From NCBI GenBank assembly GCA_030699455.1, contig JAUYMN010000017.1:1-51882 (forward strand): a DNA stretch of 51,882 bases. Reading direction: 5' to 3'. The translations under genes were made by a program, and so were the position numbers. This stretch comes from Nanobdellota archaeon. GTDB taxonomy: Archaea; Nanobdellota; Nanobdellia; SCGC-AAA011-G17; UBA489. The notes beneath the pieces are model-generated. The model was not told where the DNA came from and did not search any database. It saw only the letters and a list, made by a program, of their open reading frames with translations. Position 1 is the first letter of the stretch, and every line of letters begins with the position of its first letter. Positions 42,669 to 50,227 of this stretch are shown here, one piece after another.

Positions 42669-43745
42669 TTAAAAACTTTTAGAGAAGTGCATTGCTGCAT
42701 TAGCGGGTACTAAGAGAGTTATTTTCTTAACAACCTCTTTTCTGAGCTTAAAACTATCTGCCCATTTGGCATAAGCATTCCAGCCATAAAAACTTTCAAG
42801 TATCTTATCTTTGTTTATTTCTTTATTCTTATATTCCTTAACTTTATTTAGTATGCTTCTAATATTTCTTTTTCTTAAAAGCTTATGATAATAAAAAGTT
42901 CTGAATCCAACAAAATCAATCCCTCTTGAAAGGGAAATTATTCTTGATTTATCTGGGTGTAATTCAATCATTAATTTATCAATTAGAAACTCTTTTATTT
43001 TAGACTCCAAAATTTTTAGCTGTTGTCTTGATTTGTGCAAGATAACAAAATCGTCAACATATCTGATATAATGTTTTACCTTTAATCTATGTTTTACAAA
43101 ATAATCCAGCTCGTTAAGATAGACATTAGCAAAGAATTGTGATGTTAGATTTCCAAGAGGCATTCCTTTTTCAGAAAAACTCTTTTGCTGGATTTTATTT
43201 GAGCCATTCTTCAAAATTTTTTTAATGAGCCAATTGGCATTTTCATCTTTAATCTTTCTTTGGATTATTTTAATTAAAACTTTGTGATTAACTTCTTGAA
43301 AATAATGTTTTATATCTGCTTTGAAACAAAATGCCTCTTTTCTTAGATTGCAGGTCACCTTTCTCTTGAATAAATTAAACCTTTTTAATGCAAATAAATT
43401 TCCTTTTCCTATTCGGTTTGCACAAGAATCGTAAATAAAACTTTTATCAAAAATTGGTTCAATTACTTTAATTAATGCGTGATGCACTACTCTATCTCTG
43501 AATGCAGACTTGCTTATCTTTCTAGTTTTGGGGTCTCTTAGAATAAATATCTTCAATGGCTCTGGATTGTAAGTCTTAGCTTCAAGTTCTTCATGCAACT
43601 TAATCAGATTTTCTTGTAAATTTTCTTCAAATTCAATAACATATTCTTTTTTTGTCTTATGCTTTCTTGCTTTTTTATATGCAAAATAAAGATTTTCCAA
43701 TGAAATAATTTTTAAGTAAATCTCATTACAATCATTTTCATCCAT
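42669..43745 (-). CDS. DGR reverse transcriptase
   Basis: 358 residues, the normal DGR RT length. First catalytic Asp in FKADIKHYF (D144). Motif 4 is MPLGNLTSQ (196-203), which fits the DGR-specific (I/V/L)GxxxSQ pattern; group II intron RTs have QG there instead. The catalytic box is YVDD (229-232), preceded by IR and followed by FVIL. FIYDSCANRIGKG is also family-like. There is no maturase or endonuclease domain. The ATG lies 30 bases after the TR end, so TR and RT are likely on one transcript. Confidence 0.93.
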   Translation of the reverse strand: MDENDCNEIYLKIISLENLYFAYKKARKHKTKKEYVIEFEENLQENLIKLHEELEAKTYNPEPLKIFILRDPKTRKISKSAFRDRVVHHALIKVIEPIFDKSFIYDSCANRIGKGNLFALKRFNLFKRKVTCNLRKEAFCFKADIKHYFQEVNHKVLIKIIQRKIKDENANWLIKKILKNGSNKIQQKSFSEKGMPLGNLTSQFFANVYLNELDYFVKHRLKVKHYIRYVDDFVILHKSRQQLKILESKIKEFLIDKLMIELHPDKSRIISLSRGIDFVGFRTFYYHKLLRKRNIRSILNKVKEYKNKEINKDKILESFYGWNAYAKWADSFKLRKEVVKKITLLVPANAAMHFSKSF

Positions 43746-43774
43746 TTTATTATTAATCTTAAACCCGGGAAAGC

Positions 43775-43865
43775 CATTCCGCGCACAGCGTTGCCGTAGT
43801 TCAGGTACCTGTTGTTGCCATTAAGCCCAGACCTGTTGTCATCATCAATCCTATGAAGCCACGCC
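43775..43865 (-). repeat. DGR template repeat (TR)
   Basis: 91 bases aligned without gaps to the VR at 44209-44299. There are 11 mismatches, all at adenines of the TR coding strand; 24 adenines are present in the TR and none of the other 67 positions differs. In the target frame the TR codes W-L-H-R-I-D-D-D-N-R, then N-N-R-Y-L-N-Y-G-N-A-V-R-G. AAC codons are frequent, as in other DGRs, since changes at their two A positions can give many residues. The end carries the GC-rich GCTGTGCGCGG. Confidence 0.95.
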
Positions 43866-44061
43866 ATGCTATAGCCCTCGTTATCATGTATTCACCAAAG
43901 CTTCTCGCGAGTCGCTTTTGTATTTTATGACTTAAAATAAACAATAATGCCTTGATAAAAGGGCGTGTGACCTTTCCTGCTATTCTCCTTAAATAGCATA
44001 CTGCTAAATTCAAATAGCAATAGGGGTAATGTTAGGTGGAAGAATATCTTTAAAAAAATTA
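43866..44061 (-). other. Spacer between DGR target gene and TR
   Basis: 196 bases. It holds an AT hairpin TATTTTA/TAAAATA (43921-43939) that may end the target-gene transcript, a hairpin AAAGC/GCTTT around an 8-base palindrome CTCGCGAG (about 43896-43917), and a TATA-like GTTTATTTTAAG read on the minus strand near 43932-43943 that could drive the TR-RT RNA. No Avd-like frame is supported. Confidence 0.5.
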
Positions 44062-44808
44062 TTATTTTCTGAAAAAAGTTTCCAAGCCTTTTTCGAAATC
44101 TTTTCTTGCTAATTTCGGAACAAATTGTCTGCTATAATTAGCAATGTCTGTAAGGTTAGGTGTGGAAATTATTGAAACAGTCTCGCCACTTCGTGGCTCG
44201 ACACGACGCACCCCGCGCACAGCGATGCCGTAGTCCAGGCACCCGAGGTTGCCATTAAGCCCAGACCTGTTGCCAACATCAAACCTATGAAGCCACGCCT
44301 GTCTTGCAAAAGGTCTCTTCTCTGGATTAGCTAAATAGACAGGCATTTCTTTTACTCCTGTTTCTTTTAAAAATTCTCCATATTCACCTGCTGACCTTCC
44401 AAAAGCAAAGGCTGTTATTTCATCTTCCTCAAATCTATTTGTAGGTATTGAGCTTGCATCTTTAAATTGAACAGAATTAACCAATGATTCTTCTACCTGT
44501 TCTTGAGTTAAATAAAATTCTTCTCCGTTTCTATTACAATTTGCTGCTTCTTCAGCATTAGCCAGTATTGGGGAGTCTCCTACTAAAAATATTCCTTTTT
44601 TAGAAACATACAAAAATCCTTCTTTTGTACGACTCCCATAATTAGCCACACGAGAACCCTCTCCTTGAGCAATCCTTAGTTCCGCAAATTGCTCTAAAGA
44701 AATAATATTATAACCATTAGCCTCAAGCTCTGCTTTTGCTTCATCGAATGGTTTTTCTACATAAGCTGATTCTATTTCTGTTGGCCTTACATCCCGAATT
44801 ATTGTCAT
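44062..44808 (-). CDS. DGR target protein with variable region
   Basis: 248 residues without signal peptide or membrane segment. The N-terminal 165 residues (start MTIIRDVRPTEIESAY, then EFYLTQEQVEESL and RFEEDEITAFAFGRSAGEYG) resemble a family I associate with DGR targets of DPANN archaea. The VR is residues 170-200 (AWLHRFDVGNRSGLNG then NLGCLDYGIAVRGV). A 48-residue tail follows the VR, whereas many DGR targets end just after it. The fold of the variable part is probably C-type-lectin-like, as in known targets; that is inference. A TATA box TTTATAAAC near 44833-44841 is about 30 bases upstream. Confidence 0.88.
   Translation of the reverse strand: MTIIRDVRPTEIESAYVEKPFDEAKAELEANGYNIISLEQFAELRIAQGEGSRVANYGSRTKEGFLYVSKKGIFLVGDSPILANAEEAANCNRNGEEFYLTQEQVEESLVNSVQFKDASSIPTNRFEEDEITAFAFGRSAGEYGEFLKETGVKEMPVYLANPEKRPFARQAWLHRFDVGNRSGLNGNLGCLDYGIAVRGVRRVEPRSGETVSIISTPNLTDIANYSRQFVPKLARKDFEKGLETFFRK
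44180..44202 (-). other. DGR hairpin downstream of VR
   Basis: Stem GCCAC/GTGGC with a GAA loop on the coding strand, extended by GTC/GAC across a 2x2 internal loop. It starts 6 bases past the VR end. Known DGRs carry a hairpin or cruciform at this place that raises homing efficiency. Confidence 0.75.
44209..44299 (-). repeat. DGR variable repeat (VR)
   Basis: Compared with the TR, coding-strand changes are ATT to TTT, GAT to GTT, GAC to GGC, AAC to CTC, AGG to GGG, TAC to TGC, AAC to GAC, AAC to ATC, GGA to GGG and ATG to GTG. These are 11 base changes giving nine residue changes (F176, V178, G179, L188, G189, C190, D192, I195, V200). Every change starts from A. Confidence 0.95.
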
Positions 44809-45076
44809 ACTCTTATTTTAAAATTTGAAGTTTATAAATGTTTCTATTATGTTCTTATTTAATAGTGGTAATAAAATAAGGATAAATAACATACCATATT
44901 ATGGGCGACTGCTTCTAACAAGTTTTATTTAGAAGAGTCTTAGTAAAACTTGACATAACAATTAAGGAAACAGCTAATGCAGATAAAATGGAAAAGCTAA
45001 TCTTTGATTCAAATAACCCAATTTAATATTAGAATAGGCTTCAGAAGATAAAGTTAAAAAACACCATTATATTGTG
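44809..45076. promoter_or_regulatory. Divergent region with two mutually exclusive hairpins
   Basis: No gene seen. The minus side holds the DGR target promoter. On the plus side, hairpin A pairs CTTCTAA (44912-44918) with TTAGAAG (44929-44935). Hairpin B pairs CAAGTTTTA (44919-44927) with TAAAACTTG (44944-44952). They share bases and cannot form together. If transcription starts near 44905 (AT tract at about 44880-44888), they would lie in a 165-base leader of the gene at 45077. Confidence 0.45.
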
Positions 45077-45826
45077 ATGTCTATGGGGAATAAGAGATTA
45101 CTGATAATTTGTATATTTTTTGTTGTGATATCTTCATCTTTTGTTGTTTCACAAAATAATTCTGGAGGTGGCTCAAGTTCAAATTCCACTTCCTATGCTG
45201 GTGGCGGATCTTTGCCCGTGATTGCCGATAATAAACATCTCAAAAACCTCTATTTTTCTGAACCTGTAAAATCCATAGATTTCCTGGTAAATAAAACTGT
45301 TTTTGCTGGAAAACCATTCCCCAAAAAAATTGAAAAACTACCTGACAAAATAAATGAAATTAAATCAAAAAATGTTTATTCCTACTTTAATATTGAATCT
45401 GACAAAAAGATAAATGATAATCTAGTATCTGCTGAAATAAAATTTAATGTTAAACGTTTTTGGATAGAAGAAAAAAATGTTGATTTTGAAGATATAACTT
45501 TGTTGATTTATGACAAAAATGGCTGGAGTGATTATGGAATCGATGTTGAATACTTTGGGGAAAACTCTGAAGATTATTTTTATTTAGCGCAGATTCCATA
45601 CTTTTCTTATTTTGCAATCATTGCAGAAAAAATGGCGGTCATTGAAGGGGATGCTTCTGAAAAGAGTTCTGTTGAAGAAATCAGGAATATTACTGAAGAA
45701 AAAATGCCTGAGGATGTTCCCAAGAAAAAATCTTCTGTTTCTTTAGTTATCTTTGGTGTTCTTTTTTTTGTTGTTTTGTATTTGACATATGAATGGTTAA
45801 TGAAGAAAAAAATTCGAAAGGTTTAA
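45077..45826 (+). CDS. Exported membrane-anchored protein with PGF-pre-PGF-like domain
   Basis: 249 residues. A signal peptide (RLLIICIFFVVISSSFVVSQ) is followed by a low-complexity Gly/Ser/Asn linker. A domain at about 85-185 ends with WSDYGIDVEY and YLAQIPYFSYFAII, the pattern of the archaeal PGF-pre-PGF domain (W...G...FS.FAI). One C-terminal membrane helix (SLVIFGVLFFVVLYLTYEWL) and a basic tail anchor it. Such domains occur on surface proteins of archaea. Start choice among GTG 45074, ATG 45077 and ATG 45083 is uncertain. Confidence 0.68.
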   Translation: MSMGNKRLLIICIFFVVISSSFVVSQNNSGGGSSSNSTSYAGGGSLPVIADNKHLKNLYFSEPVKSIDFLVNKTVFAGKPFPKKIEKLPDKINEIKSKNVYSYFNIESDKKINDNLVSAEIKFNVKRFWIEEKNVDFEDITLLIYDKNGWSDYGIDVEYFGENSEDYFYLAQIPYFSYFAIIAEKMAVIEGDASEKSSVEEIRNITEEKMPEDVPKKKSSVSLVIFGVLFFVVLYLTYEWLMKKKIRKV

Positions 45827-45856: not shown

Positions 45857-45958
45857 GAGCCCGTAGCTCAGTTTGGATAGAGCGTTTGCCTTCTAGCGTG
45901 GGAAAATATTCCTGTGGAAGTCAGCAAAAGGTCGCAGGTTCAAATCCTGTCGGGCTCG
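45857..45958 (+). tRNA. tRNA-Arg (anticodon TCT) with a 27-base intron
   Basis: Acceptor GAGCCCG pairs with CGGGCTC, discriminator G. D stem GCTC/GAGC with GG in the loop. Anticodon stem TTTGC/GCAAA, mature loop CTTCTAA, anticodon TCT. T stem GCAGG/CCTGT with TTCAAAT. The intron (45896-45922) lies between positions 37 and 38, the standard archaeal site cut by the splicing endonuclease. A run of five T follows. CCA is not encoded. Confidence 0.93.
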
Positions 45959-49535: not shown

Positions 49536-49661
49536 ACTACCAATAGCTTCCAATAGCTTTTTATGTCCTTTTACAAGATCATTAAATCTATTTATTTCTT
49601 CAACAACAATCTTGTTCCTTTGTTTCTCATTCAAATCTTTTGAATGGTTTGATTTTTCCAT
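49530..49661 (-). CDS. 43-residue partner of Doc-like toxin gene
   Basis: The frame MEKSNHSKDLNEKQRNKIVV, then EEINRFNDLVKGHKKLLEAIGSL. Charged and helical. It starts inside the end of the Doc-like gene (35-base overlap) and would be translated with it. A small partner overlapping a toxin gene is often an antitoxin, but here it is downstream and without a recognised family, so this is a guess. Confidence 0.45.
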   Translation of the reverse strand: MEKSNHSKDLNEKQRNKIVVEEINRFNDLVKGHKKLLEAIGSL

Positions 49662-50034
49662 GTTTAATCCACTCTTTAATTTCTTCATCCATATAATACT
49701 TTTCACGTATTCCAAGCATTACTTTAGCTTGTTTAGGATCGTCTTCTATATTAAACTTTCCCCCATTTTGATTCAAAAATTCCTTTGTAACAATGAATGC
49801 TGTTCTTCTGTTTCCGCTGGCAAATGGATGCAGTTGAATAATCCCTTTAAGCAAACAAACTGCTTTATCATATAAATCTCCTTCTAAGATCTCACATTCT
49901 TTAATAATATGATCCAATCTACCAGAGCTAAGTACTTTTGGTCTATCCGCCTTCTTTACTTTAATAATGGTCAAAGCTAGAACATTGTATTCAATTATTC
50001 TATCAGCAGTAGGATATTTCAACCTCTTTTCCAT
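49627..50034 (-). CDS. Doc/Fic-family (death-on-curing-like) protein
   Basis: 135 residues from ATG 50034; an upstream TTG was rejected because TTATAAGTTT near 50054-50063 is 26 bases before the ATG. The Fic motif is HPFASGNRRTAF (about residues 69-80): His, Phe, Gly-Asn and Arg are kept, but Ser stands where Fic/Doc proteins usually have Asp, Glu or Asn. Doc modifies a translation factor by phosphate transfer, Fic by AMP transfer; activity with this Ser is uncertain. The small overlapping frame downstream may be its partner. Confidence 0.8.
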   Translation of the reverse strand: MEKRLKYPTADRIIEYNVLALTIIKVKKADRPKVLSSGRLDHIIKECEILEGDLYDKAVCLLKGIIQLHPFASGNRRTAFIVTKEFLNQNGGKFNIEDDPKQAKVMLGIREKYYMDEEIKEWIKHGKIKPFKRFE

Positions 50035-50227
50035 TTGTGAAATAAATAACTTCAAACTTATAAATCTAACTAAATGAAAATGGTCCCCCCTTGATTGTGT
50101 AACTAAAACTAACGGAACTCCCCTTTCTCAAAACTAAAACTGTAAGTGTAAGACGGCGCCAGTCTCTCTGCACGGTCACAAAAAAGCACAGAGAGGGTGG
50201 AAATCTAAAAAATTATAAAAATAGTAA
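50035..50227. other. Non-coding stretch with inverted repeat
   Basis: No gene. It contains CTCTCTG/CAGAGAG (about 50152-50198) around an 18-20 base loop and a plus-strand GC-rich patch (GACGGCGCC) unlike its AT-rich surroundings. The Doc-like gene promoter lies at its left edge. Confidence 0.4.

Follow-up and report, generated by a model that had tools for sequence, protein, structure and literature searches.

The window analyzed here is the whole of a 51,882-nt stretch of DNA from a Nanobdellota archaeon (contig JAUYMN010000017.1, assembly GCA_030699455.1). An earlier note on this DNA had placed the reverse transcriptase (RT), TR, VR, and target gene of a diversity-generating retroelement (DGR) together on one strand between positions 42669 and 44808, and all four lie there, on the minus strand. 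A structured RNA fills the space between the target gene and the TR, and two long-range helices connect it with the sequence on the other side of the TR (Table 1).

Table 1. Features of the DGR cassette, with positions numbered from the first base of the window.
Feature	Position	Strand	Evidence
DGR reverse transcriptase, 358 aa	42669-43745	-	Pfam RVT_1, best PDB match, tree
P0a candidate 3′ strand, GGGU	43763-43766	-	Window MFE
P0b 3′ strand, UGGCUUUCC, directly 3′ of TR end GGAA	43768-43776	-	Covariation; window MFE
TR, 87 nt	43779-43865	-	Repeat comparison
RT-16 RNA (Rfam RF03019), structured 5′ leader	43866-44024	-	cmscan 74.2 bits (gathering 50), E 9.7e-10
P0b 5′ strand, GGAAAGGUCA, just before CACG	43968-43977	-	Covariation (46 loci and 23 more); window MFE
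P0a candidate 5′ strand, ACCCC	44023-44027	-	P0a covaries across loci; weak in window
DGR target gene, AvpA-like, 248 aa	44062-44808	-	Translation; phmmer and profile match to AvpA 5ioo
Hairpin GUCGAGCCAC-GAA-GUGGCGAGAC, GRA triloop	44180-44202	-	Sequence; class as in nanoarchaeal DGRs (PMC4372165)
VR, 87 nt, within target gene	44213-44299	-	Repeat comparison
TATA-box-like TTTATAAA, putative archaeal promoter	44831-44838	-	Sequence alone

The TR and VR form an ungapped repeat with 90% identity. All nine mismatches fall at TR adenines, and the 87 nt contain no non-A background difference. Adenines occupy 22 of the 87 TR positions, and the chance that nine of nine mismatches would fall on them is (22/87)^9, or about 4e-6. 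The VR differs from the TR at 9 of these 22 adenines; eight codons are altered, all of them non-synonymously, and the 16 mutable codons of the TR give about 5e12 possible peptides. The IMH/IMH* pair reads CGGGGT in the VR and CGGAAT in the TR. A hairpin (GCCAC-GAA-GUGGC) starts 10 nt past the VR, inside the target gene, and the TATA-box-like element is 23–30 nt upstream of the target ATG. A check of the genome for further VR copies, proposed in the earlier note, found the TR and VR to be the sole copies of the repeat. In several relatives (L007, L008, L020, L023, L035, L050, and L051), a further copy with a VR lies close to the TR, so that a single TR apparently serves two targets there.

The target protein is related to AvpA (5ioo), a nanoarchaeal DGR target of solved structure, which was matched at E 3e-4 by phmmer with a single sequence and at E 3.8e-16, over the full length, with a seven-sequence profile. 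It has no match in Pfam, PHROG, or PADLOC and none above the cut-off in NCBIfam. An AlphaFold2 model built from an alignment of only seven sequences has a mean pLDDT of 36.5. Judged by its homology to AvpA, the target is a full-length AvpA relative with a predicted fold of the C-type lectin class, and it would presumably bind a ligand. The VR is internal to the gene, with 50 codons remaining after it. AvpA homology, an internal VR, the GRA-triloop hairpin within the gene, and the GGGGT/GGAAT ends mark the element as a further member of a known archaeal group, and the class is indeed already known in DPANN archaea (Paul 2015; Handa 2016), as the earlier note said.

The RT begins 33 nt after the TR and matches Pfam RVT_1 (E 7.8e-22). 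It has the LGNLTSQ and YVDD motifs recognized in the earlier note, the former being its version of the DGR-clade motif [LIV]GxxxSQ. The nearest solved structure in the PDB is the BPP-1 DGR RT (8ub7, E 1.9e-42), which scores more than 60 bits above the next match. In a tree of 71 RTs, which covers DGR RTs and group II introns and in which bootstrap values are not fully settled, 51 DPANN RTs including that of the window form one clade (support 100/99). CPR DGR RTs, phage DGR RTs, and group II introns fall outside it, and the group II intron RTs form a separate clade (support 100/100). Grouping with group II introns, which the earlier note had named as grounds for abandoning the DGR assignment, did not occur. 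An RT derived from a group II intron, a retron, or a defence system, next to a coincidental repeat, would account for the top NCBIfam match, a group II maturase model far under its cut-off (156 vs 300 bits), and for the DRT/UG matches in PADLOC, which come from general RT similarity. The probability of such an identity is close to nil, since both the tree and the TR/VR pattern refute it; the BPP-1 match stands against it as well, and most relatives carry an A-only TR/VR repeat. Among relatives, some DGR RT-like matches (e.g., in G037, G092, G072, and G128) lie in unusually long open frames of about 550–600 aa, and some of these RTs may carry an extra domain.

The cassette lies on a cellular chromosome. 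Homologs of the RT with 55–69% identity occur in Nanoarchaeota, Pacearchaeota, and Woesearchaeota genomes, and the IMG/VR virus set yielded no relative. The cassette is directly upstream of leuS and in the same direction, with a conserved neighbour gene (45074-45826) on its other side. In a sister species (L075), leuS and the homolog of the neighbour gene are about 80 bp apart and the DGR is absent, while the window has 2.4 kb at this place; a second sister species of the genus (L082) likewise has no DGR upstream of leuS. The empty junction indicates that gain or loss affected the cassette as a whole. Together with the RT homologs, this junction bears out the earlier description of a complete DGR in a DPANN chromosome. 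The RT is the sole RT in the genome (770 kb, 28 contigs, 83% complete) and is found in 117 of 371 genomes of the phylum. The sister species of the genus all lack it, and among the other eight genomes of the family it is present in just one (G007), while the target is absent from all eight. One genome from the same order as the window shares 3.1 kb, without a single difference, with a named Candidatus Nanoarchaeia locus. Elsewhere in the window are a tRNA gene that seems to contain an intron past the anticodon loop (45857-45958, plus strand), matched by Rfam and missed by ARAGORN, and a gene for a Fic/DOC family protein (49627-50055, minus strand).

RNA leader and long-range helices

The RF03019 match spans the full model (positions 1–158 of 158). 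The RNA terminates at the base before the TR and fills 160 nt that had seemed empty. The earlier description of the system as minimal, with no accessory gene, holds for proteins and fails for RNA, since the leader had been overlooked; the system is minimal in proteins, not in parts. No conserved open reading frame lies between the target and the RT. An Avd-like protein between the target and the TR (ORF 43801-44013) was considered and rejected, as the frame crosses the TR and the stretch scores as structured RNA. PF05635 (Avd) had no match in the genome, in a search run without a working control on an assembly that is 83% complete.

RT-16 RNA is present at the TR in 45 of 50 archaeal relatives and in none of 13 bacterial ones. 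When the search was made from the RNA side alone, it was found in 107 of 371 genomes of the phylum. Among the best 30 matches, which were fetched, an RT of the window's family lies within 1.5 kb in 26. The other four loci (L084, L091, L104, and L111) lack an adjacent RT gene; they have a target, a leader, a TR, and A-only VR/TR differences, and their genomes have RTs elsewhere. These loci suggest that the leader and TR are a unit that can be served in trans. In the literature searched, RF03019 is mentioned in the Rfam 15 paper alone. The RNA architecture of the DPANN DGR branch appears undescribed in the literature covered, and RT-16 may have been linked to DGRs elsewhere.

Two helices close the leader around the TR. 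P0b links about 10 nt before the CACG of the leader with about 10 nt directly after the TR, and P0a pairs the 5′ beginning of the leader with the segment that immediately precedes the RT start. For P0b, unanchored duplex energies of native partners lie below those of swapped ones (z -10.5). Covariation in P0b was measured over 46 loci with anchors picked regardless of pairing; two of the 46 automatic anchors (L020 and L061) sit at the wrong place, and their retention counts against the result. Standard pairs make up 87% of P0b compared to 69% in shuffles, with 0 of 500 shuffles as high, and double-changed cells number 109 compared to 44. Sliding the helix by one column lowers pairing to 40–49%. 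P0a covaries as well (z -10.1, 0 of 20000 permutations), and both helices held in 23 new loci that had been located by way of the RNA (for each helix, 0 of 20000 permutations equalled the native result). The last base of the P0b leader strand is an invariant A, and its partner at the TR end is a U that is likewise invariant.

Unconstrained MFE folds of the natural RNAs contain P0b in 33 of 45 cases, and about a quarter lack it. In L056, P0b is perfectly paired. In the window, P0b forms in the MFE structure with nine pairs (maximum base-pair probability 0.87) and with mismatches or a bulge, while P0a is weak at about four pairs. The fold of the window RNA as a whole is no more stable than shuffles (z -0.92). 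Single-sequence fold energy is thus uninformative for the window, and the case for the helices rests on covariation. A marginal leader-tail signal also appeared in eight related CPR bacterial DGRs (p 0.017 and 0.14), and the arrangement may therefore extend beyond DPANN.

Tracts in the RT genes of relatives

In many genomes the RT gene is interrupted at one loop just before LGNLTSQ, where a poly-G (8–27) or (GA)n tract is found. The tract lies in the RT loop at residues ~178–194 (243 in L105), between RT motifs 3 and 4. Long tracts are present in 34 of 89 archaeal RT genes (L008, L041, L047, L048, L050-L053, L055-L063, L083, L085, L092, L096, L097, L101, L102, L105, L110, L126, L128-L130, L132, L133, L137, and L148). 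Of these, 30 have a frameshift (12 by one and 18 by two), three keep the frame, and one keeps the frame but has a stop, compared to 44 in frame among 47 tract-free archaeal RTs. No tract was found in 12 bacterial DGR RTs, and the RT of the window is intact and free of tracts. About 13 of 25 poly-G runs of at least 9 in 18 tract-prone genomes are in DGR RT genes, a share biased upward by the choice of these genomes partly for their split RTs.

The tracts suggest a phase-variable ON/OFF control of the mutator in these relatives. Both shift classes occur and the two halves are otherwise intact, a pattern that favours phase variation over decay or a fixed programmed frameshift; the occurrence of both +1 and +2 shifts makes fixed programmed frameshifting less likely. 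No paper on tracts in DGR RT genes was found in the literature searched. A contig labelled Patescibacteria (L068) encodes an RT 43% identical to that of the window with a (GA)n tract, which is otherwise archaeal-only; this reflects either horizontal transfer or a mis-binned contig. The window's own genome has a 17-G run (G000:C24:28461; L143, position 1962), apparently noncoding, which may be an assembly artefact.

Proposed mechanism and alternatives

We infer scaffold and priming roles for the leader, as well as retrohoming, along the following lines. One transcript would span the target gene, the RT-16 leader, and the TR and continue into the RT gene. The leader would fold, and its strand before CACG would pair with the sequence right after the TR to form P0b, with the outer helix P0a added in most relatives. 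The TR would become a loop with its 3′ end held at the leader, and the RT would bind this scaffold and begin cDNA at the TR 3′ end. By analogy with the internal spacer adenine of BPP-1, the primer is most likely the invariant adenosine that ends the leader strand. The TR would then be copied with errors at adenines, and the cDNA would replace the VR in the AvpA-like target. The distance from TR end to RT start is ~20–50 nt in most DPANN loci, compared to 131–156 nt in BPP-1-like, BalMu-1, Vibrio phage, and ANMV-1 DGRs. DPANN loci have no room for a BPP-1-type spacer between TR and RT. On the simplest reading, scaffold and primer both come from the leader, acting from the 5′ side.

Two other explanations have to be weighed. 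The DGR could be an ordinary one whose leader is an attenuator, a regulator of RT translation, or a protection of the RNA ends, while the primer for cDNA would come from a spacer within the RT coding sequence. The P0a 3′ strand stops a few nt short of the RT start codon, where translational control would be well placed; the P0b helix could likewise protect RNA ends or regulate RT translation, and the literature covered holds no priming data for any archaeal DGR. Yet P0b abuts the TR 3′ end exactly, and the leader stays with the TR in the 4 of 30 loci that have no neighbouring RT gene, which indicates that it serves the template rather than RT translation. We consider this explanation rather unlikely. 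It is quite improbable that the cassette is a fossil, decayed or dormant, whose RT no longer acts. The absence of the RT from sister species of the genus, the weak P0a, and the difference at merely 9 of 22 TR adenines would agree with a fossil, but the RT and target frames are open with intact motifs, and every VR change is an A-change on a background of zero non-A differences, which argues for recent homing.

Returning to the scaffold proposal, we regard it as probable: the window's complete chromosomal DGR would be an apparently working, Avd-free member of the nanoarchaeal AvpA kind, with the leader as its scaffold. The wider reading is that DPANN DGRs are a distinct mechanistic branch in which RT-16 with P0a and P0b replaces the BPP-1 3′ spacer and perhaps Avd, the leader primes cDNA, and, in much of the branch but not in the window, the RT is phase-variable by tract slippage. 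We put the chances of this wider reading at about even.

DGRs have been described as widespread in nano-sized cells, yet what is known of their mechanism comes mostly from a single phage. With a conserved, covarying RNA placed around the archaeal template, an orphan Rfam family acquires a definite function, and the P0 helices pinpoint bases to mutate for priming tests in an Avd-free DGR. If the tract-bearing RT genes are phase-variable, they hint at how cells limit a permanently dangerous mutator; if the slippage reading is true, targeted hypermutation is itself phase-variable.

Comparison with known systems

Like the window, the DGR of the ANMV-1 virus is archaeal, and its RT is the closest phage or virus RT (41% identity). 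It differs in its viral tail-fibre target, in the 139 nt from TR to RT, and in the position of its RT outside the DPANN clade.

BPP-1 shares with the window RT homology (8ub7), A-specific TR/VR differences, and a hairpin after the VR. It differs in its use of Avd and of a ~150-nt spacer on the 3′ side of the TR; between TR and RT the window has 33 nt, where a BPP-1-type spacer would have ~140 nt (156 nt in the BPP-1-like phage), and no Avd match in the uncontrolled search. In BPP-1, an internal adenine of this spacer primes cDNA at IMH* (PMC12875486). An RNA strand ending in A and paired beside the TR 3′ end is common to both systems: in the BPP-1-like phage the spacer segment is AGGUGGUCA, within which AGGUGGU is complementary to an AUCACCU close to the end of the TR. 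We take the final A of this segment to be position 56 and the cDNA start to be opposite G117.

The RNA of the window is a full-length match to Rfam RF03019 above the gathering score, and it contains the conserved element. Rfam treats the 158-nt element alone, whereas here it is the 5′ leader of a DGR template, and the P0a and P0b helices to the TR 3′ side fall outside the model.

The closest resemblance is to the nanoarchaeal (DUSEL4) DGRs and AvpA (PMC4372165; PMC5006420). They share a cellular DPANN host, the order target-VR-TR-RT, an internal VR followed by ~46–50 codons (50 in the window) in an AvpA-homologous target, a GRA-triloop hairpin in the target gene, and the IMH/IMH* core GGGGT/GGAAT. 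They differ in having four or more cassettes per genome, whereas the window has one, and in the first letter of the IMH motif, which is T there and C in the window. Their authors drew possible Avd-like frames between target and RT, where the window has RT-16 RNA. By itself, the single cassette of the window is ordinary; where BPP-1 relies on Avd and a 3′ spacer, DPANN DGRs seem to employ a closed RNA scaffold on the 5′ side.
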